This document shows positions 30,427-43,320 of a DNA stretch of 55,993 nt, in pieces. Positions within the stretch are counted from its first letter, which is position 1. Every line of letters starts with the position of its first letter. The notes under the pieces were generated by a model. That model did no database searches. It was not told the origin of the DNA and saw nothing but the letters and a program-made list of their open reading frames with translations. The position numbers and the translations under genes were made by a program. Source of the DNA: an uncultured Bacteroidales bacterium (GTDB lineage Bacteria > Bacteroidota > Bacteroidia > Bacteroidales > P3). The stretch lies in the NCBI GenBank assembly GCA_900318665.1, contig ONLQ01000012.1, positions 1 through 55,993 on the forward strand, given 5' to 3'.

Positions 30427-30464
30427 ATCCTCCCACTGTGTCGCAATTTGGCATGCAGCATCCA

Positions 30465-30472
30465 TAGCTTTG
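30465..30472 (+). promoter_or_regulatory. -7 box TAGCTTTG for the exonuclease gene
   Basis: TAnnTTTG match 24 bp before the chosen ATG at 30497; a TTTG at 30447-30450 is too close to be an ideal -33 element. Confidence 0.45.
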
Positions 30473-30496: not shown

Positions 30497-31000
30497 ATGC
30501 AAGATTTCGCAGCAATAGATTTTGAGACAGCCAACGGGCAGAGGTCCAGCGTGTGCAGCGTCGGCATCGTTGTAGTGCGTGGCGGCGTGATGACAGACAC
30601 ATTCTACAGCCTCATCAAGCCAGAGCCTAATTACTACAATTGGTTTTGCCAAGAAGTGCACGGCCTCGGCCACGAGGACACCGACAACGCCGAGGTATTC
30701 CCCAAAGTGTGGGCCAAAGTAGAGCCGCTCATCGAGGGGCTGCCACTCGTAGCACACAACAAACGATTTGACGAGAGTTGCCTACGTGCCGTAATGCAGG
30801 TCTATCAGATGGATTGGCCCGATTATGACTTCCGTTGCACGCTGCAAGCCTCACGCCGCAAACTCCGCAACCTCGAAAACCACCAGTTGCACACCGTGGC
30901 GGCAGCCTGCGGCTACAATCTAGAACATCACCACCACGCCCTGGCCGACGCCGAAGCCTGCGCCGCCATAGCAATAAAACTAATGGAAGAAGACCTATAG
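30497..31000 (+). CDS. DnaQ-like 3'-5' exonuclease
   Basis: 167 residues from MQDFAAIDFETANG. An in-frame ATG at 30347 would overlap the peptidase gene by 80 bp and add a non-conserved stretch. The exonuclease motifs are intact: ExoI DFETA (Asp-Glu), ExoII HNKRFDESCL, and ExoIII HHALADAEACA (HxAxxDA). Length and motifs match the standalone exonuclease group often annotated as polymerase III epsilon-like or exonuclease X-like rather than the replicative epsilon subunit. It probably degrades single-stranded or mismatched DNA in repair. It is the last plus-strand gene before the accessory region. Confidence 0.88.
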   Translation: MQDFAAIDFETANGQRSSVCSVGIVVVRGGVMTDTFYSLIKPEPNYYNWFCQEVHGLGHEDTDNAEVFPKVWAKVEPLIEGLPLVAHNKRFDESCLRAVMQVYQMDWPDYDFRCTLQASRRKLRNLENHQLHTVAAACGYNLEHHHHALADAEACAAIAIKLMEEDL

Positions 31001-31206: not shown

Positions 31207-32112
31207 CTAATCCTCTTCTTGATACTTTTGCGCCATTTTGGCTGCCTCTTCCCTCATCTCGACACGCAGTGTTTCCGGCTTCAACACCTCGAGGCTGCTG
31301 CCAAAGGATAGCAGACGCTGGCGAAGGTCGAAAGTGGGACGCAGACGGAATGAGAAGATAGAATAGTCCTTTTCGTGGCGCAGTTCGTACTGCGAACTAT
31401 GCAACGGCAGCGAGCGCAGATAGTTGGCCTGATAGGCGTCAACCTTTATCCATACGCTCTCCACTTTGCTGTCGTCAATTATCACGCCGTAGGCGCCATC
31501 AAACATCTGCTCAAGGTCGAAATCCTCGTCCCGCTGATAGGCCTCCTCTTGCGCTTCCACATTCGAAATCCTATCGAGCGCGTAGATGCGGTGCTGGCCG
31601 TTGTCGCCATAGCGGCCTATCAGATACCAGCGGCGCTCAAACATTTTCAAAGCGTGCGGCTGAAAGTTGAAATAGTGCGTAGCATGGTCGCTCCAATAGG
31701 GCGCATAATCGAAAGATACCATGTTCTTATCCTTCAAGGCTTGGAGCAGCGGCGACAGCGACTCAGTGTGCGTCGGCTCAACGGCGATATACTGCGCTGT
31801 CTCGCGGCTAGCCTCCACCACACGGTTTATCGCAATGGAGTCCATCAGCCAACGGCGGAAATAGTCGTTGCTACCGCTGTCGGCAATACGGTAGAGATGA
31901 TTGCCAGAGTCGCCGACATAGCACTCTATCTCAATGCCGAAGACGTCGCGCACCTCGTTGCGATGGCGATGGAAAGAGCGCTTGTTATAGGCGTTGCCCC
32001 CGTCCACATCGTCATAGTAATAGCGTCGGCAGATTTGCTCCAACGTCAGTCCTCGGCTGCCGCCACGCATCAGCGTGTCCACGAGCCAGATATACTTCTT
32101 CAAAGGAGTCAT
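31207..32112 (-). CDS. WYL-domain transcriptional regulator
   Basis: 301 residues from MTPLKKYIWLVDTL; starts at 32145 or 32205 are possible but add non-conserved residues. The N-terminal winged helix-turn-helix is about residues 1-78, with SRGLTLEQICRRYYYDD as the recognition region. The WYL domain follows (about 125-190), with the name-giving RWYLIGR at 161-167 and RIYALDRI after it; the WCX-type end (FRLRPTFDLRQRLLSFG) completes the fold. Characterised relatives (PafBC, BrxR, CapW) sense nucleic-acid ligands and control DNA-damage or phage-defence genes, often binding dyads at their own promoters. It is the last gene of the minus-strand cluster led by a 52-residue peptide and a repeat protein, both with the shared dyad at their promoters, so autoregulation is a natural inference. 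Confidence 0.88.
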   Translation of the reverse strand: MTPLKKYIWLVDTLMRGGSRGLTLEQICRRYYYDDVDGGNAYNKRSFHRHRNEVRDVFGIEIECYVGDSGNHLYRIADSGSNDYFRRWLMDSIAINRVVEASRETAQYIAVEPTHTESLSPLLQALKDKNMVSFDYAPYWSDHATHYFNFQPHALKMFERRWYLIGRYGDNGQHRIYALDRISNVEAQEEAYQRDEDFDLEQMFDGAYGVIIDDSKVESVWIKVDAYQANYLRSLPLHSSQYELRHEKDYSIFSFRLRPTFDLRQRLLSFGSSLEVLKPETLRVEMREEAAKMAQKYQEED

Positions 32113-32236
32113 ATATTTCGATTCTTTTATGAAATAATAACGCATAAGTTGTTGTTGCTGGTATCTAAACCTTCTACCATTTCGAAAAACGTTACCAGCC
32201 ATCACCCCAAAAGATGTGGCAGGTAACGTCGATTGA

Positions 32237-32767
32237 TTAGCAACCGCCTGTGAGTTCCCTCTTTATGCGTTCTGCCTCCTGTTCCTGCATCTTTTGAAGC
32301 AGGCTGGAATTGCCCAAGAAAGCGTGCATCGGGATGTGGCTACGATAGCGTTCAAAGAATTCGCGACCATATATGTCCTCGCCACGATAACCACGGTCTA
32401 TCAGTTCCTCCCAGTCCCATCGGTCTATGAAACGGTCAATAAACAGATAGTCGAGATTCAAATTGTAGTTACCCGACAACTTATGCCAGTTCCAGCGGTT
32501 AACGAAATAGGCAATAACGTCGGGGGTAAGCAGATACTCGTTGCTACTGTCCGAGAGAGCCTCCCAGTCCAGACGGTCCGCCCACTTCTCAATGAGCCTC
32601 ACCGTCCAGCGAATCCCGCTGTTCTGCGACACATTGTTCCAATTCAGTTTGTCGGCGTATTTCTCCAGCATTTCCTCGTTCAGACCGTAGTTGCGAGAGA
32701 TTTCGTCCCATGCATTCGTGTTGATGATGCAGTCAAGCACCTCGTTTTTTAATTCCTTGCAATTCAT
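32237..32767 (-). CDS. Hypothetical protein with W-rich (NWxxLS) helical repeats
   Basis: 176 residues, no signal peptide. Four to five degenerate repeats of about 26-30 residues are visible, each with an aromatic-acidic turn: AWDEISRNYGLN, NWNNVSQNSGIR, DWEALSDSSNEYL, NWHKLSGNYNLN, WDWEELIDRGY. Between them lies a helix of the type IEKWADRLDW or IDRFIDRWDW. I recognise this repeat style from uncharacterised Bacteroidota proteins but know no function; a protein-interaction scaffold is an inference. It sits between the 52-residue peptide gene and the WYL regulator, probably in one transcript, and has its own copy of the shared dyad at 32835-32855. Confidence 0.75.
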   Translation of the reverse strand: MNCKELKNEVLDCIINTNAWDEISRNYGLNEEMLEKYADKLNWNNVSQNSGIRWTVRLIEKWADRLDWEALSDSSNEYLLTPDVIAYFVNRWNWHKLSGNYNLNLDYLFIDRFIDRWDWEELIDRGYRGEDIYGREFFERYRSHIPMHAFLGNSSLLQKMQEQEAERIKRELTGGC

Positions 32768-32810: not shown

Positions 32811-32969
32811 TCACGCTACAAAGATAGCAACCCAGTGTGCCAAATCGCGACACACTCCGAAAAGAATTAGTAGGCCTTCCAAAGCAGTGGCAATCACCGC
32901 CACCCGCAAAGCCAGCCATCCGCCGTCGCTCTCGTCAAGCCATTGATAAAGTTTCTTATTCATCTTCAT
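32811..32969 (-). CDS. 52-residue predicted single-span membrane peptide
   Basis: Small open frame MKMNKKLYQWLDESDGG..., ending at TGA (32811-32813). The first 16 residues are polar and charged; residues about 18-39 form one hydrophobic helix (WLALRVAVIATALEGLLILF), followed by a short tail with CRDLAHW. An alternative start is Met3. Support for it being real: a good promoter with the shared dyad lies 45 bp upstream (33015-33051), and its end runs into the promoter of the next gene, whose -7 box starts 6 bp from its stop. Against it: no homologue is recognisable. It could be a small membrane effector or toxin-like peptide, or the region may simply be a leader. Confidence 0.5.
   Translation of the reverse strand: MKMNKKLYQWLDESDGGWLALRVAVIATALEGLLILFGVCRDLAHWVAIFVA
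32819..32855 (-). promoter_or_regulatory. Shared dyad operator + -7 box, copy 1 (repeat-protein/WYL cluster)
   Basis: Minus strand: GTGTGTC-N7-GGCACAC (32835-32855), then exactly 9 bp, then TATCTTTG (32819-32826). The two 7-bp arms are complementary at all but one position. The repeat-protein ATG is 52 bp downstream. One of four copies with identical geometry. Confidence 0.8.
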
Positions 32970-33014
32970 TGTTTGTTTCAAATTAAAAGTAGGAATTAAT
33001 CCCGATTACGCCGA

Positions 33015-33051
33015 CAAAGATACCAAAGCAGTATGCCAGATCATGACATAC
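33015..33051 (-). promoter_or_regulatory. Shared dyad operator + -7 box, copy 2 (52-residue peptide)
   Basis: Minus strand: GTATGTC-N7-GGCATAC (33031-33051), 9 bp, then TATCTTTG (33015-33022). This is the best copy and fits the four-site consensus at every position. The peptide ATG is 46 bp downstream. Confidence 0.8.
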
Positions 33052-33064
33052 ACAAAAAAAAACA

Positions 33065-33091
33065 TAAAAAAAGGCGCCACGTCGTGACGCC
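33065..33091 (-). terminator. Terminator of the DUF262 gene pair
   Basis: Minus strand: GGCGTCAC-GAC-GTGGCGCC (one G-T pair) followed by TTTTTTT. It lies about 110 bp past the second DUF262 stop and just before operator copy 2, insulating the downstream cluster. Confidence 0.75.
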
Positions 33092-33200
33092 ATAATTAAT
33101 TAAATACACTAGAATATACTAGTTTAGGTTAAGTGTATGGTTTTTCAATATAGGTTCACTAAAAAAAACTCTACCACTGTGATTATTAGATCTATTATTA

Positions 33201-35762
33201 CTACAATTGCACCGAATCATTACTTACCTCACCATCCTGCAGACATGAAAGATTTTTTTCATCCGCTTTCTTTTGAGCAATTAAGCAATCGAGGTTGGCA
33301 AGAAAAACATTTGGCGTAATAGTCTCGTTAACTCTAAAACAGAAATAATTACCCTCATCTGTAATATTATCTACTAATGGTTTTTCGCGTTTCTGATAGT
33401 CCTTCCACTCTTCCTCCATCAAATAGACATCTAATTCCGTTTCTGAAGGATTTCCATACCATTGGAAATAATAGCCATTGTATTTAAAATCAATATCCCA
33501 TCCCAATAGATAATTGGTATTTGAAATTTTCTGTCCCTCTTTTATCTCAATTTCTTGTGTGAACAACAAACTATTCCTCGGATGATTAATTACAATTACT
33601 TCCTCCCAACGATTTAATTTACCCTCAATACGGTTAGAGTACGTTGTCAATACATCATACCCCCTCCATTGTTTGAGGATATGCCATCTTGACTGTTTTT
33701 CAAACAAATCTTGAAGCAATTTATCATTTGTTATCCAATCCACTTTACAGCCTGTAGAAATAGTGGGGTCTGTTGTTAGCAATTCATGTATTATAGACTT
33801 ATTTTCGTTAAGCAACAATTCTGTACGCCAAAACGTCACCTGCTCACTGAACCACTTTTCAGAAATATCAATTCGAGATAATAATGCACGTAACAGATTA
33901 GCCTTATTATATTCATCGGACACACCCTTGCAATTAAAGAACTTCCGAGAATGTTCAAATTTATTATCAAAATCATCCCAGCAGACCTCTCCGTTTTCAT
34001 TGGTAAATAAGAATCGAATTGCACCTTTGAAAAAGGCTGTTTTTTCTGCATCTTTGATTATATCTTCCCACGTTTCGTATTCAGTTCTTTCCTCTTTCTT
34101 ACAATTCCCACAATATTTTCGCGGTTCACCTTTTTCGTCAAGAATCTGTTTGGCCTTATTTATTTCTTCAATACATCTACTCTCAAATTCTGACGGTTTA
34201 TCCCATTGGAAATAATTTTTTATTAGGGATTCGTAAACATGATGGCTATCAAGTTTATCTATAAAACCAATGGCATCACGGACTGCTTTAGTACTTCTGA
34301 TTTGGGCTTTGCCATCAGGGCTTTCTCCCGAAACCAAATTCCATACAACGCGCATCCAACGACGAAAAGAAATCTCATCAAAAAAGACATTATTCTCAAC
34401 CTCTTTAAAATACTTACATACAGCGAAGAAGATAATTCGATGGACTTGGGTAAGAGGAGTCACCTTCCATATTTTATTCCCACTTTTATCCTGAATCTCA
34501 ATATTTTTATCATAATCATCCTTCTCGTATTCTGGGATAAATTTAAATTCCTTATCCCACGGACAACCAAATAAATCTGATAGATTGGATTGTTTTTCGA
34601 ACCATATATAATATGTATCTAGTACTACTTGTAAGTCAGTAAACAACTGATATGGTATCTCGTTAGAAAAATATTGATACACATCCAAACCTTGATAAGA
34701 TATTGTCGTATCATAATCATATTGACCAGAATCTGAATTGTTTAGATACCGATATGATGCATTGTTGTTTTCTTGCGTTGAACTACCATCACCTTTACCA
34801 ATATCAAGAATAAACCCATTTTTTTCATCTTTTGCTATAAACAATTCATTCCAAAAGAATCTATTCAGAAACGCAAAGAAAACCTCATCTATCTTGTAAT
34901 CTGTTGATTTATTATGCCAAAAAATATTAGTCCACGTATTGTCCATCTTAAGAGGAATACCATTTTGGGCATCCAATAACGATTCCCACTTTTCACGTTT
35001 CACTCCATCTGATGAGTCAACCTGATCTCTAATATATCCGACCAAATCAGCCTTGAAATTTTCAAAACTAGTCAGTTGTTTCCCTCGGGCATTCATTTTG
35101 ATGTATAAGTCATCAGAGAGTCCGAAGTCTTTTAACGAAAAGTCATAAAAAACTATCAAATCATCCTTGCTCAGTTTTTCAAAATACTCCTTATATTTAT
35201 TAGAATCACTGTCCAGAAAGATTTCCTCAATACCATCAATAATATCATCGCCCTTTTTGTCAGCTATTTTGGTTCCACTTAACATTCTGAGCATTGACTG
35301 GATGGTTGGGTCTTGTTTCCAGGCTGAATAAAACCAAGTTTGGTTAGTGATAAAGCCGACCACATCGTTTCCATCAAAATCTTCGAAATAATTTGGATTG
35401 CACAGATTCTGACAAAACTCACGAGATGAAATCCTCGTCTCGTATGTAAATTTCTTTAAGGTTTCTGAAGCATCCGACAGCTTTCCTGCTCGTAAAGCAA
35501 TATACCAATGTAAAAGCCATAAAGTTGTAAGACGTTGCTGTCCATCTAATGGATTAAAATGACCATTTTCCACTGAGCCATAGATGAAATCAAGTTTTAA
35601 TTCTTCTCCATCAAGTGCTCTCTTTAAACTTGAAAGAAAATTCTTGCGCAAATACTCTTTTCCCAGTCTTCCTTGTGCATAATCACGCTGAATGATGGGA
35701 ATTTCTATTGAATTATCTTTTAAGAACTTCCAAAAGGATGTTTTGTCTGTATTATTGATCAT
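33201..35762 (-). CDS. DUF262 domain protein (GmrS-like N-terminus), second gene of a DUF262 pair
   Basis: 853 residues. The N-terminus has the DUF262 (ParB/Srx-like) motifs: IPIIQRDYAQGR at 21-32 and LDGQQRLTTLWLLHW at about 72-86, the DGQQR element thought to bind nucleotide and drive hydrolysis. The long remainder is helical and unlike anything I recognise; I see no clear DUF1524 HNH motif, so its nuclease partner may be the neighbouring protein. The C-terminal about 120 residues look beta-rich (GWDIDFKYNGYYFQWYG). Its ATG overlaps the stop of the upstream DUF262 gene (ATGA), giving translational coupling and a likely complex. Base composition is markedly AT-rich, suggesting transfer. GmrSD and SspE relatives attack modified phage DNA; that role is inferred here. 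Confidence 0.83.
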   Translation of the reverse strand: MINNTDKTSFWKFLKDNSIEIPIIQRDYAQGRLGKEYLRKNFLSSLKRALDGEELKLDFIYGSVENGHFNPLDGQQRLTTLWLLHWYIALRAGKLSDASETLKKFTYETRISSREFCQNLCNPNYFEDFDGNDVVGFITNQTWFYSAWKQDPTIQSMLRMLSGTKIADKKGDDIIDGIEEIFLDSDSNKYKEYFEKLSKDDLIVFYDFSLKDFGLSDDLYIKMNARGKQLTSFENFKADLVGYIRDQVDSSDGVKREKWESLLDAQNGIPLKMDNTWTNIFWHNKSTDYKIDEVFFAFLNRFFWNELFIAKDEKNGFILDIGKGDGSSTQENNNASYRYLNNSDSGQYDYDTTISYQGLDVYQYFSNEIPYQLFTDLQVVLDTYYIWFEKQSNLSDLFGCPWDKEFKFIPEYEKDDYDKNIEIQDKSGNKIWKVTPLTQVHRIIFFAVCKYFKEVENNVFFDEISFRRWMRVVWNLVSGESPDGKAQIRSTKAVRDAIGFIDKLDSHHVYESLIKNYFQWDKPSEFESRCIEEINKAKQILDEKGEPRKYCGNCKKEERTEYETWEDIIKDAEKTAFFKGAIRFLFTNENGEVCWDDFDNKFEHSRKFFNCKGVSDEYNKANLLRALLSRIDISEKWFSEQVTFWRTELLLNENKSIIHELLTTDPTISTGCKVDWITNDKLLQDLFEKQSRWHILKQWRGYDVLTTYSNRIEGKLNRWEEVIVINHPRNSLLFTQEIEIKEGQKISNTNYLLGWDIDFKYNGYYFQWYGNPSETELDVYLMEEEWKDYQKREKPLVDNITDEGNYFCFRVNETITPNVFLANLDCLIAQKKADEKNLSCLQDGEVSNDSVQL

Positions 35763-37699
35763 TGTTTTCTAATTTTATTTGTTGATTCCAATTTTTCAAG
35801 GCAATATTCAATATCTTTTTTGTAACCTCCTGCATCAATTTTTGTCCAATAATTTAACTCACTCATTGATGGCGAATAATATTTCATGAAAATATGTTTC
35901 GTACATGGCGGAACAAATGAAGATTTAGCATCCGTTTCTACGCCCAGATGTATTTTTTCATTCTTTCCATCCCTTGATATCTTCGGTATTGCAATATTTT
36001 TCCCCTTATCCTTACCAATAATCACACGCCGTTTCCCAGAAAAGATTGTATTTCCATAACTTTTATTAGTCGACGAATCCAGTAGAGTATAATTCCAAAT
36101 ACGATTTTTTTCTTCGGATGTCCATTCTTCGGTCTGAGGCATCTTCTTCTTTATTTCTTCATATATCGCTTTCTTTTCATTCTCAGAAGAATTAAAATAG
36201 CGACAAATATCTTCTTGAATACTCTCGTCAACTCCTATATATATATTTAGAAGCCATTCTGATTGCGTGGCATCATCTTCTTCTGCATTAGTCGTATTTG
36301 AATTTATGTGTTCCACATCCCATCCCTCAAGTTTGTATAAATGGAATGGGAATTTGTAAAACACACCTATTTGATATTTTTCGTTACTTATATAATTAGC
36401 GTTCTGATTAATAATGGTCTGAATATTGTGAAACAATAGAATCGGCTTACATTTTTGTTTATCACCACCATCTTCCTTGTATTGAAAATCCACACTAGGG
36501 CACCGCTTAATTATATCTTTTATCTTTTCTCTCAAATACGCAACAAATTCCTTTTTATCCGATACCTCATTCCATTTTTTCACCAATTCTCGTAATGATT
36601 TTTCATTCTCCATCTCCACGAGAAAACCAACATAATGATACAATTCCAAATCATTGAACCACTCTTGAAATGTTTGAAAGAAACTCTTTACTTCTCTCCA
36701 ACAGTTTTCAATCTTAGATTCCTCTTCGTTTGAATCATTGTTGAAATACTCATAAAAATAGCGAAAAGTTCTATAATTATCAGATCCTATTTTTTCTATT
36801 TGTTTATCTATTAGTTTCATTGAATTCATCTCGCATATTAAATCAAAGATAAAATCAATTCTTGTAGGCCGTTCATAGCCTTTTTTGTGAAGAAAAAGCC
36901 AGAACTCATCGTTCTGAAGCGTGTATTCGATGTTATCCCATTCGCTTGCGATTTCCTGCTGACGTAGTTTCAAATGCCCAGCTTCTTCTCCTCCAAAATT
37001 TGATCGATTAAGGAAAAGTGCTTTAATAAGTTCCGCATTGGTAAGAGAAATTTTGCCAATATTTAGCCTTGTAAAAACTTTTACAGGATCTTCATCGACA
37101 GATTCATACCAAATAAACTTTGTTTTTGAAAGTGTTTTAGATTGGAACTCATTATTATCAAAGGAAGAACCACACATATCAATAGCCCATCTATTAATTT
37201 CATTATACGTCTGCTTCATATAATGAAAATCAATATAATCATAATCTAATCTTTTCTCACTAAATGATTTAGCCTGCCCAAATTCATCTATTACCAATGA
37301 CATTAAATAATCATAACTATCATTTCGTGTTTCATATTTTATGATTGGTAATTGTTTCTTTTGTTTTCCAACCCACATTTCATTGAAATAATGAACAAGA
37401 AGAAAAATTGTAGTTAACCTTTGCTGTCCATCTATAACTTCATACCAACCATTTTTTTCTTCAGTAAAGTCCAAACGATCATCTTCTTCGCTCATATGTT
37501 TTACAACTAATGGCTGCAAGCAATACCATGTATCTTCATTGGTATCCTTTATCTTTTCTGGTTTGAATTCGTTTATGTCATTCAGCAAATCCAATACCTG
37601 TTGTTCCTTCCAACGATAGCCCCTCTGGTAAGAGGGAATAAAGAACCTCATATCGAGAAGTTCTCCAACTGATTTCAATTCTATTTTATTATCTTCCAT
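35759..37699 (-). CDS. DUF262-DUF1524 protein (GmrSD-like putative nuclease), first gene of the pair
   Basis: 646 residues. DUF262 motifs: IPSYQRGYRW (21-30) and IDGQQRLTTIFLLVHYF (about 89-105). The C-terminal half matches DUF1524: VEHIN with His464 as the likely HNH/His-Me-finger residue, then the family's WNYTLLDSSTNKSYGNTIFSGKRR around 530-560. A fused DUF262-DUF1524 protein is the architecture of single-chain GmrSD type IV restriction enzymes, which use NTP to cleave glucosylated or otherwise modified DNA. Here it is paired with a second, longer DUF262 protein overlapping by 4 bp. No methylase or specificity subunit lies nearby. AT-rich like its partner. The start MEDNKIELKSVGELLD is preceded by a -7 box at 37731. 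Confidence 0.87.
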   Translation of the reverse strand: MEDNKIELKSVGELLDMRFFIPSYQRGYRWKEQQVLDLLNDINEFKPEKIKDTNEDTWYCLQPLVVKHMSEEDDRLDFTEEKNGWYEVIDGQQRLTTIFLLVHYFNEMWVGKQKKQLPIIKYETRNDSYDYLMSLVIDEFGQAKSFSEKRLDYDYIDFHYMKQTYNEINRWAIDMCGSSFDNNEFQSKTLSKTKFIWYESVDEDPVKVFTRLNIGKISLTNAELIKALFLNRSNFGGEEAGHLKLRQQEIASEWDNIEYTLQNDEFWLFLHKKGYERPTRIDFIFDLICEMNSMKLIDKQIEKIGSDNYRTFRYFYEYFNNDSNEEESKIENCWREVKSFFQTFQEWFNDLELYHYVGFLVEMENEKSLRELVKKWNEVSDKKEFVAYLREKIKDIIKRCPSVDFQYKEDGGDKQKCKPILLFHNIQTIINQNANYISNEKYQIGVFYKFPFHLYKLEGWDVEHINSNTTNAEEDDATQSEWLLNIYIGVDESIQEDICRYFNSSENEKKAIYEEIKKKMPQTEEWTSEEKNRIWNYTLLDSSTNKSYGNTIFSGKRRVIIGKDKGKNIAIPKISRDGKNEKIHLGVETDAKSSFVPPCTKHIFMKYYSPSMSELNYWTKIDAGGYKKDIEYCLEKLESTNKIRKQ

Positions 37700-37730
37700 A
37701 TTCTTTATTTTATTAATTGTTTATGATTTG

Positions 37731-37738
37731 CAAATCTA
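37731..37738 (-). promoter_or_regulatory. -7 box TAGATTTG of the DUF262 pair
   Basis: Minus-strand TAnnTTTG match 31 bp before the ATG. A half-site resembling the shared dyad (ATGTGTC, 37763-37769) lies upstream but is one base out of register and its partner arm is absent, so I do not count it as a fifth operator. Confidence 0.5.
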
Positions 37739-37992
37739 CATAAAATCCACGAATCACACACAGACACATGAGTTTTTTTCATGATATTCAGAGAAAATAT
37801 ACAAAAATCCCCACACTCAAACATCAATGTGGTAGATCCAACGAATAGTTGTCAGTGATTATTTATCAAAAAGTCGGAATATGTATTTCAAAAGCGTTTT
37901 TTGCGGGATGTTTTTGTTCGAGTTTCCTTCGAGTTTTCTTCGAACATTGCTCAAGGTTGATTTCTGATATTTTTTGTAAATTATTCTCTTCC

Positions 37993-38370
37993 TTAGTTGT
38001 GGTCGTATATCGGATATTTTTTGTGACGGCTGATAACGAAGTCGTAAAGTTCTTTGTCTTTCTCCTTCAGATATTCGAGGCAGATGCCCTCGAACTCGGG
38101 ATATTCAACACCAACACTAGGACGTTGGTCAAAACGGGGAAAACCGTATGCCCAGTATTCATTTTTGAAATCTTCGAGTTTAGAGTACATCCCGCAACTT
38201 GTTACAACAGTGGAAACGACAAACTCATCGTCACTGTCTCCGAGCCTGTTGTGAGCCCACAGCGACAGGCCTCCCGGCACGAACTTGTGCCGTGCAAACA
38301 CATAGTCGATAAACTCATGATTTTTAACAAAGAGCCAGAAAAACTTTTCATTTAATTCAAATCTGTCCAT
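37993..38370 (-). CDS. Hypothetical protein, 125 residues
   Basis: Starts MDRFELNEKFFWLFVKNHEFIDYVF and ends near HKKYPIYDHN. No signal peptide or membrane span; rich in aromatic and acidic residues, with a compact mixed alpha/beta look (LSLWAHNRLGDSDDEFVVSTVVTSCGMY). I do not recognise a family. It lies upstream of the DUF262 pair on the same strand but about 300 bp away, and downstream of the structured RNA region and operator copy 4, whose transcript could reach it through a leader of about 270 nt. An immunity or accessory role is speculation. Confidence 0.6.
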   Translation of the reverse strand: MDRFELNEKFFWLFVKNHEFIDYVFARHKFVPGGLSLWAHNRLGDSDDEFVVSTVVTSCGMYSKLEDFKNEYWAYGFPRFDQRPSVGVEYPEFEGICLEYLKEKDKELYDFVISRHKKYPIYDHN

Positions 38371-38479
38371 ATCTAATAATTTTTGGTTAGTTGTTTTTTT
38401 CTATTTTTAAATTCATCAAAGCGTCAAATAATCATTCCATACATATAATAAATTAAATACTGAAAGCAAAACTTTAGCG

Positions 38480-38641
38480 TTTTAATATTTTTTAAGCAAG
38501 CAACCGAAGATAAAAAACAGAAACAATGGATTCTCGTTTTTTGTCCTCACGTGGCAAAATGGCACGGGCCTTTTGTATAAGGCGACACCCTGATTCGTGG
38601 TAATCATGGCCTTGCAGCCCGTCAGACAACACGCAAACTTT
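38480..38641 (-). ncRNA. Candidate structured RNA or structured leader
   Basis: Read on the minus strand, a G+C-rich segment in an AT-rich gap folds into nested stems: TTGTC/GACAA (38625-38629 with 38541-38545), ACGGGC/GCCCGT (38617-38622 with 38564-38569), AAGGC/GCCTT (38609-38613 with 38579-38583) and TGATT/AATCA (38602-38606 with 38591-38595) closing on a 6-nt loop. The promoter with operator copy 4 points into it, with the predicted start a few bases upstream of the first stem. The end is uncertain; a weak T run occurs near 38490-38510. It may be a free small RNA or the 5' leader of the 125-residue gene. Confidence 0.45.
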
Positions 38642-38647
38642 TTTTAG

Positions 38648-38684
38648 CAAAGATAGGCATATGGTATGCCCTACTGCGACATAG
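38648..38684 (-). promoter_or_regulatory. Shared dyad operator + -7 box, copy 4 (structured RNA)
   Basis: Minus strand: CTATGTC-N7-GGCATAC (38664-38684), 9 bp, then TATCTTTG (38648-38655). The 9-bp spacer adds a third half-site, so GGCATA-CCA-TATGCC is itself a perfect palindrome. Confidence 0.75.
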
Positions 38685-38770
38685 GGCTAAATGCCTTGTT
38701 TTTTTTTCTTTATTTTTGCTCGCCTACGCATTTTTTTAAAAAAATAGTATAACGGAAAGGAAAAATTGCA

Positions 38771-38778
38771 TAATTTTG
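38771..38778 (+). promoter_or_regulatory. -7 box TAATTTTG for the lipoprotein
   Basis: TAnnTTTG match on the plus strand. It would give a leader of about 160 nt before the ATG at 38946. No -33 element is evident. Confidence 0.5.
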
Positions 38779-38945
38779 CAACGTCTAAACAAAGAAGGAT
38801 TTTCCGTTAGCAACAAGACCCAAAACACACTCATCTACAAACTATTACAACTACACCAACCATCTCCCATTCGCTTACGGACTCGACCTTTTAATTTAAT
38901 TTACACCGAAAAAAAACAATCAACCAATAAAAAAAAGGAAACATC

Positions 38946-40205
38946 ATGAAAAAAATGAGATTTTTAGCAGCCCTTATGGCTTGCCTGATGCTCGCAGTAT
39001 CATTCTCTTCGTGCGAAAAGGATGAAGAGCAAACAAACAACACATCAAACCAAGGCCAGACCACGGCCTTCTTCCCCACTGGCTATGACCGCAGCGCTGT
39101 GGTGGCATGGTTCACCGGCATCGAGTACCAGAGCGACGGACAGGTCAACGTGCAGGCCATCTATATCTTCAACGATGGCAGCATGCTTTCCACTCTCTAC
39201 AAGAAGAAAGCCGACGGCCGAGAGAGTCGCAAAATCGATGTCACCGGCACCTGCCGACTGACCAGCGGCGACTACACCAACGGCACCGCTATTGTCAGCA
39301 TTCCCAGCCTCGGCATGGAGATGAATATAACAATCCGTAACGGCGTGTTCTCCGTAGAAGGTGTGACTTTCACTAAACAGGACAACGACAAAATACCCGC
39401 CGCACAGGAGCCTACAGGCGATAACGGTGGTGGCACCAACAGCAGCACCCTCCTGACCGACGCCTATCTGCCCGCCGCCTACGGCGACAAGACTATCGTG
39501 GCATGGTATGCCTTTAGCAACCAGGAGAACGACCGCATCAAGACCGAGGCCGTGTTCCTCTTCGACGACAACACACTGGTCGTGACCAAGCACAAGGAGT
39601 ACACCAGCGGCAGGGCTCCCGAGAATGAAATCGAAGCCGAAGGCACCTACCGTCTCACCGAGGGCGACTATGAGAACGGCACAGCCAGCGTGATGGCAGG
39701 CGACAGAAGCATCACGGCGACGATAGTCAACGGTGTTCTCTCCGCTATGGGCGAGCAATTCACCAAGCAGGACAACGCCAACGCCCCCGAGCCAACAAAA
39801 AGCGAGGACAACGGCGGTGAGAATGGTGGCGAAGGAGAAGTAAGCGCAACGGCCTACCTGCCCGCCAGCATTGCCAACGGCAAGACCATCGCAGCCTGGT
39901 ACAGCAACACCAACGAGACTTCCGACAGAGTGAGAATCGAGGCTGTGTTCCTCTTCACCGACAACACTATGGTTGTGACCAAGAGCAAGGTATATTTCGA
40001 CGGACGTACCCCAAACTTTGAGAAAGAGATTGAATTCACTGCCACCTACGAACTCATCGAGGGCGACTATGAGAATGGCATCGCCAGCGCAACAGTAGAA
40101 GGTCAGGTTATGCGGGTACAGATTTCCAACGGCATTCTCATTGTTAGCGAAGACAACACCTTCACCAAGCAGGACAACGCCGACGCTCCCGCACCTACGG
40201 AATAA
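38946..40205 (+). CDS. Lipoprotein with a triplicated beta-rich domain
   Basis: 419 residues. Signal peptide with lipobox SFSS-C (Cys23) and an acidic start of the mature chain (EKDEE), typical of surface-exposed Bacteroidota lipoproteins. Three consecutive copies of a domain of about 110-120 residues follow, starting near residues 40, 170 and 300. Each has the order AYLPAxxxxKTIAAWYxxxNxxxDRxxxEAVFLFxDNTxVVTKxKxY, then YxLxEGDYENGxAS, then ITxxIxNGxLxxxxxxFTKQDN. The linkers are Gly/Asn/Glu-rich (NGGENGGEGE). I do not recognise the domain. The triplication at similar nucleotide level suggests recent expansion. It is the only plus-strand gene in the accessory region. Confidence 0.8.
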   Translation: MKKMRFLAALMACLMLAVSFSSCEKDEEQTNNTSNQGQTTAFFPTGYDRSAVVAWFTGIEYQSDGQVNVQAIYIFNDGSMLSTLYKKKADGRESRKIDVTGTCRLTSGDYTNGTAIVSIPSLGMEMNITIRNGVFSVEGVTFTKQDNDKIPAAQEPTGDNGGGTNSSTLLTDAYLPAAYGDKTIVAWYAFSNQENDRIKTEAVFLFDDNTLVVTKHKEYTSGRAPENEIEAEGTYRLTEGDYENGTASVMAGDRSITATIVNGVLSAMGEQFTKQDNANAPEPTKSEDNGGENGGEGEVSATAYLPASIANGKTIAAWYSNTNETSDRVRIEAVFLFTDNTMVVTKSKVYFDGRTPNFEKEIEFTATYELIEGDYENGIASATVEGQVMRVQISNGILIVSEDNTFTKQDNADAPAPTE

Positions 40206-40230
40206 TAGACTTTTGAATTTCTAACATAAA

Positions 40231-40264
40231 CCACAGCGAGCGCCCAAATGGGCGCTCGCTGTGG
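40231..40264 (+). terminator. Strong hairpin after the lipoprotein gene
   Basis: Perfect 15-bp stem CCACAGCGAGCGCCC / GGGCGCTCGCTGTGG with loop AAAT, 25 bp after the stop. No T run follows, so it may act as an mRNA-stabilising hairpin or a non-canonical terminator. Confidence 0.65.
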
Positions 40265-40321
40265 CTATATCCATATCGTATTTATGCCGAGAAAACAGAG
40301 ACACACGCTTCCAATCAGGAC

Positions 40322-40348
40322 CAAAAACGCACGCTCAAAGGCGTGCGT
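40322..40348 (-). terminator. Terminator of the glycosylase-like gene
   Basis: Minus strand: ACGCACGC-CTTTGA-GCGTGCGT followed by TTTT. It lies 35 bp past the stop of the minus-strand gene ending at 40383, facing the lipoprotein hairpin. Confidence 0.8.
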
Positions 40349-40382
40349 CAGTAAAACAGAATGTGGTTTTATTGCATAACCA

Positions 40383-41528
40383 TTAATATGCGTACTCTCC
40401 ATTTTTGTTTACAAAACATCGTGCTATTTCATAAGCGGTTTGGTAATCGCCCCTACCATAATAATAAGCCCAAGCACTTGAAATCACTTTATAAATCCCC
40501 CTTCCTCCATCTTCAGAATATCGTCCTCCATAATTGGTTGTGACATCATTCATATTAAATATTCTTGCCAAGTTACCCCCATACATTACCGCATTTTTGG
40601 GGACTAAAGAATGTGCTATAGAGGCTATCAATTCGGCTTTATAGTCCATTGTGGCCTTGTTATCAACTGATGGGGTGTTGTCTTGCCAATCTTCACCTGT
40701 CTTGGGCAAAGTGTCCCAAACATTGTAGTTTACAATATCTTTAATTAGCGAATCCACATAGCTGTCTATCCCAATTCCACTATAGAGCCCCATCCATGTG
40801 GGATGCGGCAAATGGAACACGTGGGTAGCCGAATCGCGTAGGTAATAGTAGTTGTATTTGGGATTCTCATTGTTCAATTTCAAAACATTTCTTCTTTGCT
40901 CGAAATTTTTTCCGAAAATATCACTCAAAGTGGTTTCGTTGAGGATGTAATTTTTTTCATCAACACCACTATAGATTATGAAAATAACCTTGGGCATACA
41001 TGAATTGATAATGTGGTTTAGATCATCAAATCTTCTACTCGCACTTTTCACAACATTCCATGAGTCAATCTCTGCTCCTTCCCACTTACTTGTCACCTCA
41101 TATCGCTCAATGCAATTCGCATTTGCCCATACAAAACTTTTAAGAATTGAACTGGACGTGACATCACCCTCCTTTGCAACCAGTTTTTTAAAATCAACCT
41201 TATAAAATTTAGCAAGAAACTTGAACACAAATGCCCAAAACGTGGCGTGACCATTGGCCATCCATCCGAGATGCTCTAAATCATTGAGCCGAGTGTCCGA
41301 GTCCGACAAATACTCATCTTCACTACGCAACATAAAGTCTTCCATCATATTCCATCCGTAGGTTTCCATTCCACAGAAAGCAAACTTATACTTTGCCAAA
41401 TCATAACATTCTCCAACTCCAGGGAAATGGGGACCAGTAATACCCTTGATATTTACATCTTTAACATCGTTCTTGAAGTCTTGAATAAGCGGACCATATT
41501 CCGCATTTCGTCTATCAATACTGCTCAT
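40383..41528 (-). CDS. Hypothetical protein, possible uracil-DNA-glycosylase fold
   Basis: 381 residues, no signal peptide. Residues 46-59, KYKFAFCGMETYGW, resemble motif 1 of a prokaryotic UDG-like group (VLFVGQETNGW in relatives I remember), and HLPHPTW (239-245) resembles the HPS-type motif of UDG enzymes; between them is a strand PKVIFIIYSG (179-188) as in that fold. The last about 120 residues (AELIASIAHSLVP..., GGRYSEDGGRGIYKVISSAWAYYY) look like a separate domain. The catalytic residue cannot be assigned, so activity is uncertain. The gene is more AT-rich than the ATPase gene beside it. It has its own promoter at 41567 without the shared dyad. Confidence 0.6.
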   Translation of the reverse strand: MSSIDRRNAEYGPLIQDFKNDVKDVNIKGITGPHFPGVGECYDLAKYKFAFCGMETYGWNMMEDFMLRSEDEYLSDSDTRLNDLEHLGWMANGHATFWAFVFKFLAKFYKVDFKKLVAKEGDVTSSSILKSFVWANANCIERYEVTSKWEGAEIDSWNVVKSASRRFDDLNHIINSCMPKVIFIIYSGVDEKNYILNETTLSDIFGKNFEQRRNVLKLNNENPKYNYYYLRDSATHVFHLPHPTWMGLYSGIGIDSYVDSLIKDIVNYNVWDTLPKTGEDWQDNTPSVDNKATMDYKAELIASIAHSLVPKNAVMYGGNLARIFNMNDVTTNYGGRYSEDGGRGIYKVISSAWAYYYGRGDYQTAYEIARCFVNKNGEYAY

Positions 41529-41566
41529 AAGTTTATTTTTTTTTGTTTAACAATAAAATTGACGTG

Positions 41567-41574
41567 CAAATGTA
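41567..41574 (-). promoter_or_regulatory. -7 box TACATTTG for the glycosylase-like gene
   Basis: Minus-strand TAnnTTTG match 38 bp before the ATG, located in the 63-bp gap after the AAA+ ATPase gene. Confidence 0.55.
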
Positions 41575-41591
41575 CGTTTTTTTTTACTTTC

Positions 41592-43256
41592 TCACGACGA
41601 GAAACCTATGCGGTTTTTTGTGGGATTGTCGAGGCGTTCTTTGTCGCAGTGGGGGGCTAACTGGTCGTAGGTGGGCTGGGAGATGCCGTGGATAATCTGG
41701 TCGATGGCGTAGTGGCGCGCGATGTTCTCTATCTGTCCGCCACTGAAGTCGTAACGCTCGGCGAGGCGTGAAGCATCGGACATTTCGAGGTCAGGCAGCA
41801 TCTCGCGCCAGATGGCAGCACGGGCATCGACGGTGGGACAGTCAAAACGTATTTTGTAGAGGAAGCGGCGCTCGAAGGCACGGTCCATGTTCTGCGCCAG
41901 ATTGGTGGTGGCAATGAGTATGCCGTCAAGGGTCTCCATCTCTTGCAATATGATGTTCTGGATGGAGTTCTCCATCTTATCGACGGCACGCTCGGCACCC
42001 TCCTGTCGCTTGCCGATGATGGCGTCGGCCTCGTTGAAGAGGAGGATAGGGGCTATGGTCGATTCCTTGACGCGCCGGCGGTAGGTGTCGAAGAGGGCTT
42101 TGACGTTCTTCTCGCTCTCGCCAACCCAGCAACTCTTCATCTCGGCGAAGTTGACTTGCATAATGTCGCGTCCAGTGCGGCGAGCCAACTGCAAAGCGGT
42201 TTCGGTCTTGCCAGTGCCTGGTGCGCCATAGAATAGACAGGCGAAACCGCAACGAAGACCCTTTTGCTGCAGTCGCTCGTGGATGTCGCGGTAGTGCTCC
42301 TCGTCGAGTAGGCGTGCCAGGTCGTCGATGCTGTGGGTTATATCGGTGGAATAGAAGAGTTGGCGGGGCTTGATGTCGGAGGCACGGAGCAAATTGCGGC
42401 TCGGCTTGTTCTCCGTCAGCGACGGCAATTGCAACTCGTCAAGCAGTTCACGCTTGGCATTCATGGTAAGGCGGTAACGTTCACGGTCTGCCATTCCGTC
42501 GCTACCACTGTTTTCTATCAGTTTTTTTTCTTGTAGGTCGTGGTTTCCATATTGCAGGTAGCGTTTGATGTAGCGCATTTCGCTCTTGGTAAAAAAGAAA
42601 TCAAAGTCTCGATAACCTATATTGTCATCGCTATTTTCCACAAATAGATGACAGAATATGATGAGTAATGCAAGGTCGCTGCCCTCCAAATTGAGAGCAT
42701 TCACCTTCTGCACGAAGAGCAGTTGTGGGTTCTGTCCGAGCAACATCTCGAAGTGCGCCACGGCGGTGTAGTAGTCCATATCTTCGTCAATTACATGGTC
42801 GATGATGTTGGCAAACTCGTTGAATAGGTCTTGACAGGAGAGTCCGGTATAACTCTTGGGTGCAAAATCTTCGTTAAGTTTGAAGGACTCTATAACCTCC
42901 AGCGGCACGCTGTAGGAAAGCGACCTGTGCGAGCGACTACGAATGACGAGACCACGGCACACCAACTCGTCAATATCGTTCATATAACGAATGATGCGCG
43001 TATTGCGACAGTCTGTGTAATTGGAGAAATCGCTGGTCTGAATACAAGAGTCGTTACACATATCAATAAAAAGTGCCATCATGACGCTCTGTTCTTTCGT
43101 GAGGTTGAGGCGAGTGCCTAAATACTTGATTGGACGAGCGGCTTTCTTGTAGAACTCTGGCGACAACTGCGAGTTCTTAGCCAAATCTACGATACACTCA
43201 ACTGCCGACAGCAAGTCTAACTTACTCTTTCTCTGTTTCTTTTCTTGTTCTTCCAT
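41592..43256 (-). CDS. AAA+ ATPase with long helical N-terminal region
   Basis: 554 residues. Residues 1 to about 290 are helical and carry no domain I can name. The AAA+ module follows: Walker A GAPGTGKT near residue 343, a FAEMKSCWVGESEKNVKALF segment as in classical remodelling ATPases, Walker B LLFNEADAI near 407 (Asn where most have Asp), sensor 1 LIATTNL, and the arginine-finger region DRAFERRFLYKI. The NEADA form is seen in a Bacteroidota group of AAA+ proteins annotated only as ATP-binding. It probably remodels a protein or nucleoprotein. Its promoter carries operator copy 3, linking it to the WYL cluster 10 kb away. G+C content looks like the host core, unlike the DUF262 genes. Confidence 0.85.
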   Translation of the reverse strand: MEEQEKKQRKSKLDLLSAVECIVDLAKNSQLSPEFYKKAARPIKYLGTRLNLTKEQSVMMALFIDMCNDSCIQTSDFSNYTDCRNTRIIRYMNDIDELVCRGLVIRSRSHRSLSYSVPLEVIESFKLNEDFAPKSYTGLSCQDLFNEFANIIDHVIDEDMDYYTAVAHFEMLLGQNPQLLFVQKVNALNLEGSDLALLIIFCHLFVENSDDNIGYRDFDFFFTKSEMRYIKRYLQYGNHDLQEKKLIENSGSDGMADRERYRLTMNAKRELLDELQLPSLTENKPSRNLLRASDIKPRQLFYSTDITHSIDDLARLLDEEHYRDIHERLQQKGLRCGFACLFYGAPGTGKTETALQLARRTGRDIMQVNFAEMKSCWVGESEKNVKALFDTYRRRVKESTIAPILLFNEADAIIGKRQEGAERAVDKMENSIQNIILQEMETLDGILIATTNLAQNMDRAFERRFLYKIRFDCPTVDARAAIWREMLPDLEMSDASRLAERYDFSGGQIENIARHYAIDQIIHGISQPTYDQLAPHCDKERLDNPTKNRIGFSS

Positions 43257-43283
43257 AGTGATATTTATTTAGTTTTTCGACGA

Positions 43284-43320
43284 CAAAGAAATGCACTACA
43301 TGTGCCAAATAATGACATAC
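43284..43320 (-). promoter_or_regulatory. Shared dyad operator + -7-like box, copy 3 (AAA+ ATPase)
   Basis: Minus strand: GTATGTC-N7-GGCACAT (43300-43320), 9 bp, then TTTCTTTG (43284-43291), one mismatch from TAnnTTTG. The ATPase ATG is 28 bp downstream. Confidence 0.75.

Follow-up and report, generated by a model that had tools for sequence, protein, structure and literature searches.

A dyad at a fixed distance from the promoter box

The window analysed here is a stretch of 55,993 nt, one whole contig (ONLQ01000012.1) of the 2.30-Mb genome of an uncultured Bacteroidales gut bacterium (GCA_900318665.1; 73 contigs, 93.6% complete), and it contains an island of candidate defence genes with a recurrent 21-bp imperfect dyad at their promoters. 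The locus raises the question of which protein reads this dyad, and whether it turns the genes on or off. The site clusters around genes of one protein family with winged helix-turn-helix (wHTH), WYL and WCX domains, often directly before the WYL gene itself, and accompanies them in many related bacteria; it most likely allows the WYL regulator to turn on a group of genes for defence and DNA handling.

On the transcribed strand each site consists of the dyad, an 8-bp spacer and a TAnnTTTG-type box. A first-pass annotation of the contig had described four such dyads on the minus strand, and all four are present: at 32835-32855 in the promoter 32819..32855, at 33031-33051 in 33015..33051, at 38664-38684 in 38648..38684, and at 43300-43320 in 43284..43320. 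The boxes behind them read TATCTTTG in three cases and TTTCTTTG at 43284. The arms GTRTGYC-N7-GGCAYAC given for all four are exact at 32835 and 33031, while 38664 and 43300 carry one mismatch each, and the constant distance from dyad to box was also borne out, except that it is 8 bp to the first base of the box and not 9. The count of four has to be raised to five, since a further site with the same spacing lies on the plus strand (30436..30472; dyad 30436-30456, 8-bp spacer, TAGCTTTG box ending at 30472). It stands 24 bp before the ATG at 30497 of a DEDDh exonuclease gene and has 0 mismatches to TRTGTC-N7-GGCAY-N10-TANCTTTG.

The bare dyad is no better than chance, with 31 matches in the window at up to 3 mismatches against 25.65 expected. 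The combination of dyad, spacer and box is far above chance, and the dyad is real and non-random: the 2.30-Mb genome has 7 sites at no more than 1 mismatch, of which the window holds 5, and another 3 with 3 mismatches. The reversed pattern matched 4 times when up to 3 mismatches were allowed and never when the limit was 2. Five of the seven good sites are no more than 12 kb from the WYL gene; the two outside the window precede dnaE and a BspA-like leucine-rich repeat gene, both named by eye from open reading frames (ORFs).

The spacing was then measured on 116 distinct dyads from 101 loci that had been picked by the dyad alone. The box was found at exactly 8 bp in 94, at 0 in one and at 30 in one, and at no other distance from 0 to 44. 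The first base of the TAnnTTTG box thus comes 19 bp after the dyad centre, which falls at about −31 if that base, as we assume, is −12. A table of 157 dyad promoters gave the consensus TRTGYCAYGATNTGGCAYA-N9-TATTTTTGCA, in which the operator has the two-fold form TRTGYCA-N5-TGGCAYA. Among 227 other TAnnTTTG promoters from the same loci, 18% have a TTG 19–21 bp before the box, compared with 0 of the 157 dyad promoters; the conserved bases of the dyad exclude TTG, and the dyad thus stands in place of the −33 element. At WYL promoters missed by the position matrix described below, symmetry peaks at the same place, 19 bp before the box, with a mean of 3.04 of 7 pairs (23 boxes; other offsets 1.4 to 2.8). 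In some lineages the arms are altered together on both sides, for example to TATGACA/TGTCATA in loci L137 and L138, with further cases in L155 and L165.

One locus has an unusual arrangement: at L144:16268-16320 a single dyad has a −7 box at 8 bp on both sides (sites 16268 and 16285) and could form a two-way promoter.

Occurrence of the site with WYL genes

At up to 2 mismatches the pattern has matches in 21 of 61 genomes (own genome included), many of them adjoining close orthologues of the window WYL gene. With a close orthologue defined by at least 57% identity, 10 of 37 same-genus genomes have one, again counting our own; several of the 37 are incomplete. Sites at no more than 1 mismatch are present in 7 of these 10 genomes as opposed to 3 of the 27 without a close orthologue (Fisher p 0.001).

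A position matrix was built from 14 sites (7 from the own genome, 7 from relatives), leaving the 8-bp spacer unscored. At a score of at least 12 it found 44 sites in 23 loci and 0 in the same sequence reversed. We also searched named genomes with a 13-sequence WYL alignment and took the best 78 of more than 500 loci, to which uncultured Bacteroidales from the guts of ruminants contributed many. A threshold of 18 gave 78 sites in 32 of 34 close WYL loci and 55 sites in 28 of 44 distant ones, with 0 in the reversed control; some of the 34 close loci are the same contigs as the matrix training set.

Two broader samples were drawn. The WYL alignment alone matched 82 of 148 Bacteroidales genomes, and 29 narrow loci were taken from the best of these, own genome left out; sites at score 12 were found in 6 of the 29 (9 sites in all, control 0). 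Of the six genomes, G120 and G149 were also found by the motif search described next. G055 and G057, which have no site in their narrow loci, belonged to the earlier set. A strict motif search of 392 Bacteroidales genomes returned 15 sites in 11 genomes and none in the reversed control. Some of these lie near WYL, DprA-like or RtcB genes, and those in L202, L203, L206 and L208 lie near genes without such a link.

The WYL protein as candidate binder

The candidate regulator is encoded on the minus strand at 31207..32112 (301 aa when counted from the likely ATG, within a longer ORF that begins at 32205). It has a WYL domain followed by a WCX domain, both above the Pfam cut-offs (4.5e-13 and 9.4e-12), and in a Pfam scan at E 0.1 these were the only models listed, with no HTH model and no S24 peptidase. 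In the structural model, residues 3–76 form a wHTH of three helices and a two-stranded wing that aligns with DriD and PafB. The fold is closest to DriD, at about 20% identity, and the sequence profile matches PafBC (6sj9, 1.9e-14). The arginine pair that binds single-stranded DNA (R-x-x-R of PafBC/SiwR) is incomplete, reading YALDR where DriD has WRLDR; across the 13-row WYL alignment the first arginine position is A (S in one row) and the second arginine is invariant.

This is the one WYL gene of the wHTH-WYL-WCX family found in the 93.6% complete own genome, and none of nine other window proteins scanned exceeded the Pfam cut-off for a DNA-binding regulator model, the 176-aa protein giving a non-significant HTH_45 match (E 0.094). 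The proposal that the dyad is a protein-binding operator of a small regulon, with the WYL protein as its likely binder, is supported at the sequence level by the 5 of 7 sites near the WYL gene and by the 7 of 10 versus 3 of 27 genomes.

A long insert interrupts the profile match in two WYL-family proteins, one in a 565-residue open frame (G021:C60:81170-82744) and the other in one of 597 residues (G027:C22:33621-35366).

Activation, repression and other readings

It is rather probable that a dimer of the WYL protein binds the dyad and activates the promoters. In the mechanism we propose, the dimer would occupy TRTGYCAYGATNTGGCAYA at the five window promoters and at two elsewhere in the genome. 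A ligand would fill the WYL domain, and the bound dimer would then hold RNA polymerase at the dyad promoters, switching on the AAA+ ATPase, the exonuclease, the WYL protein's own operon and probably GmrSD-type genes. The signal may be a nucleotide or nucleic acid set free when DNA is damaged or phage attacks. Activation is favoured over repression because the spacing is exact, the dyad takes the place of the −33 element and the fold is closest to DriD.

The first-pass annotation had preferred repression until a signal arrives, with the WYL protein, in the manner of CapW and BrxR, keeping RNA polymerase blocked as long as no ligand releases it. The dyad does overlap the promoter, WYL genes are themselves often preceded by a site (16 of the 153 downstream ORFs), and CapW and BrxR are described as WYL repressors of defence genes (PMC9122588, PMC9122601). 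Yet a repressor needs no single exact spacing, and 94 of the 96 boxes found are at 8 bp; this spacing, seen in 94 of 116 dyads, and the dyad at the −33 position would suit a DriD-like activator better. The sites from which CapW and BrxR repress lie elsewhere or vary in position, CapW sites overlapping the −10 and R-BOX1 of BrxR lying downstream of it, though Acinetobacter BrxR also covers the −35 (PMC9122588, PMC9122601, PMC9122589), and the window protein is nearer in fold and sequence to the activators DriD and PafBC. We consider repression the less supported alternative, unlikely but to be taken seriously. It is less likely again that another DNA-binding protein reads the dyad, the WYL gene being only a frequent passenger of the same islands. 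Good sites in genomes without a close WYL orthologue and the low frequency of sites in the broad sample agree with such a passenger; the fact that sites immediately precede WYL genes in several lineages, some of them (L137, L138, L155 and L165) with both arms altered, speaks for the WYL protein, as does the lack of another regulator match among the nine scanned window proteins. That the motif is no operator at all, and instead a promoter variant dedicated to an alternative sigma factor, seems very improbable. Dyad and box are coupled at one distance, as this would require, but the box has the usual TAnnTTTG form read by the primary sigma factor (PMC7366714 for the consensus), and the two-fold symmetry of the part upstream of it fits a dimer. 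A sigma-54 promoter was rejected by eye on spacing.

Several observations weigh against activation by the WYL protein. Genomes G002, G018 and G021 carry sites at no more than 1 mismatch and have no close WYL orthologue, so that the motif does occur where no close orthologue was found; the first-pass annotation had held that conservation of the motif in related genomes lacking the WYL gene would refute its proposal. These three stand beside the 7 of 10 genomes that have both. G021 encodes a divergent WYL protein, its profile match interrupted by an insert, and two partial ones, G018 has partial or distant matches, and a profile search of G002 gave no WYL match. In the broad sample 23 of the 29 narrow WYL loci lack a site, and the score-18 scan of WYL loci is not independent of matrix training, since some training sites recur in L092-L125. 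The absence of TTG from the 157 dyad promoters shows replacement of the −33 element and not weakness of the promoter, because the dyad's own bases exclude it. The second-best symmetry offset, 2.83, is close to the best, 3.04, with no significance attached to either. Acinetobacter BrxR is reported to cover −51 to −27 (PMC9122589), so a repressor too can overlap the −35. The structural model of the WYL protein has middling quality (predicted TM-score, pTM, 0.52), and full-length TM-scores to DriD are below 0.5. Recognition-helix residue 49 was compared with an operator base in 81 loci with an aligned WYL protein, 68 of them with sites: an R at this position goes with T or A (34 of 39 loci), N or H goes with C (23 of 27), and so does D or T (2 of 2). 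As proof of binding this co-variation was rejected, the tree containing 3 independent pairs (sign test, median p 1).

Comparison with known systems

DriD is the closest parallel to the proposed WYL activator. Like the window protein, to which it is the best structural match, it combines wHTH, WYL and WCX domains, and its pseudo-palindromic sites of about 20 bp are reported to keep a single distance to the −10 and to overlap a poor −35; there the dimer anchors RNA polymerase (PMC12340889). The window sites follow the same plan. DriD too has a small regulon, which includes an endonuclease (bapE), recJ and dnaG. The two proteins differ in that identity is only about 20%, and the likeness of the sites noted here concerns their form and placement; moreover, 5 of the 7 own-genome sites here share an island with candidate defence genes. 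Where DriD and PafBC have the first arginine of their R-L-x-R pair, the window protein has alanine. PafBC of mycobacteria, the profile match 6sj9, is likewise a WYL sigma-adaptor for promoters without a normal −35, although it is a heterodimer whose −26 motif is thought to be non-palindromic (PMC11804915, PMC6789036), whereas here there is one gene and a symmetric site. Mycobacterial SiwR is described as an activator with a 19-bp imperfect palindrome between −35 and −10; a point of difference is that the target described for it is an adjacent operon (PMC10693628). BrxR of BREX and CapW of CBASS are WYL regulators in defence loci with palindromic promoter sites of about 19–27 bp.

The non-canonical LexA proteins of Bacteroidetes also control an operator-defined stress regulon in the same phylum. 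Their reported motifs, CTAA-N5-TTAG or GGA-N5-TCC (PMC8565304), differ from TRTGYCA-N5-TGGCAYA, and a LexA box was rejected as the identity of the operator on this ground. The Pfam scan of the regulator at E 0.1 gave no S24 peptidase domain. Both non-canonical LexA groups are reported absent in Bacteroidales, which makes the dyad regulon a useful test case (PMC8565304). Searches on WYL among titles and opening lines of abstracts of open-licence PMC papers yielded no WYL operator in Bacteroidales.

It is possible, though we hold it with considerable doubt, that WYL activators of one family serve Bacteroidales in sensing nucleic acid that is damaged or foreign, the movable fixed-position dyad letting each lineage recruit its own defence and repair genes into one inducible programme. 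If so, the recruited set would comprise the AAA+ ATPase, the DEDDh exonuclease, GmrSD and PLD proteins, and occasionally RtcB, a gyrase-B-like protein and dnaE. The operator, the regulator family and the target list make LexA-free sensing of DNA damage or phage testable in cultured Bacteroidales, and regulated defence genes not named by any existing model can be sought by scanning for the operator at its exact spacing.

Genes behind the dyad promoters

For 153 of 157 distinct sites at a score of at least 18, an ORF of 45 residues or more begins no further than 250 nt away, the median distance being 28 nt. The longest such ORF was taken as the target of each site, and targets were grouped by BLAST clusters. 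The AAA+ ATPase forms the largest cluster (24). Two small families follow with 22 and 14 targets, WYL itself has 16 and the DEDDh exonuclease 8. Among the lesser clusters and singletons are the 176-aa protein family and GmrSD-type, PD-(D/E)XK, PLD, gyrase-B-like and RtcB genes, with names partly given by eye. Within 79 loci the families recurring near the WYL gene are the exonuclease (30), the AAA+ ATPase (26), and RhuM-like and PLD proteins (21 each). In a Lentimicrobiaceae genome, where the score is lower (16.8), the order is site, WYL, site, AAA+, exonuclease. The predicted recurrent targets are thus the AAA+ ATPase, the exonuclease, WYL itself and small uncharacterised families, with GmrSD-type genes as occasional members.

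Of the four targets proposed in the first-pass annotation, two are not supported, the 52-residue peptide and the structured RNA. Within the fetched loci the peptide finds no relative over its full length, its other matches being of E 0.29 or worse and confined to the last 13–27 residues, mostly translated operator. For the supposed RNA downstream of 38648, folding is no better than in shuffled sequences (z −0.79) and there is no Rfam match; its sole other match in the fetched loci spans 61 nt (E 0.012).

Three families were rejected as general or conserved members. Further AAA+ loci have score-12 sites in 4 of 30 cases, two of them already known (own genome and G055) and two weak (12.8–14.9). 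RtcB loci have none in 30 others, drawn from 52 matching genomes. For dnaE, 1 of 30 loci has a site, that of the own genome; a motif common before unrelated housekeeping genes had been named as evidence against a regulon, and this single case, with none in the 29 other dnaE loci, is what the scan returned.

Some individual sites may be recorded here. The dnaE site (L012:504-539; own genome, contig C40:39803-39838) is a good dyad promoter between a UvrD/PcrA-like gene and dnaE, both named by eye. RtcB RNA ligase genes lie behind dyad promoters in two lineages (L169:8236-8271 and L207:1501-1536); in L207 a 154-aa ORF separates site and RtcB, and a DUF2201 vWA gene lies upstream of the site. In one relative a gyrase-B/ParE-like gene stands behind two dyad sites (L095:7310-9235).

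Gene content of the window island

The exonuclease gene behind the plus-strand site (30497..31000, plus strand, 167 aa) matches RNase_T (4.6e-18) and PDC-S48 (6e-28), and its relatives lie behind sites in other loci. Upstream of the WYL gene, a 176-aa protein with repeats recognised by eye is encoded on the minus strand (32237..32767); relatives occur in other WYL loci, and the two genes likely share an operon, for which 32819..32855 is the dyad promoter. The promoter at 33015..33051 lies about 200 bp further upstream, with no convincing gene between the two.

Two GmrSD_N genes on the minus strand overlap by 4 bp. The first (33201..35762) encodes 853 aa (GmrSD_N 1.3e-19) and the second (35759..37699) 646 aa (GmrSD_N 3.3e-29), with matches to the defence-library models Orf5, HEC-06 and SspE. 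The promoter at 38648..38684 is followed by a leader of about 280 nt and a 125-aa ORF (37993..38370, minus strand), the first minus-strand ORF of at least 60 aa downstream of the site, which has no Pfam match. The GmrSD pair is possibly transcribed from this promoter too, after the 125-aa ORF.

The promoter at 43284..43320 precedes the AAA+ ATPase gene (41592..43256, minus strand, 554 aa; AAA 3.1e-23, IetA 3.7e-30), whose relatives form the largest family behind sites. Downstream of it a 381-aa protein of no Pfam family is encoded (40383..41528, minus strand), with relatives in L079, L094, L103 and L111. On the plus strand, 38946-40205 encodes a probable lipoprotein with three similar repeats, seen by eye, and no Pfam match.
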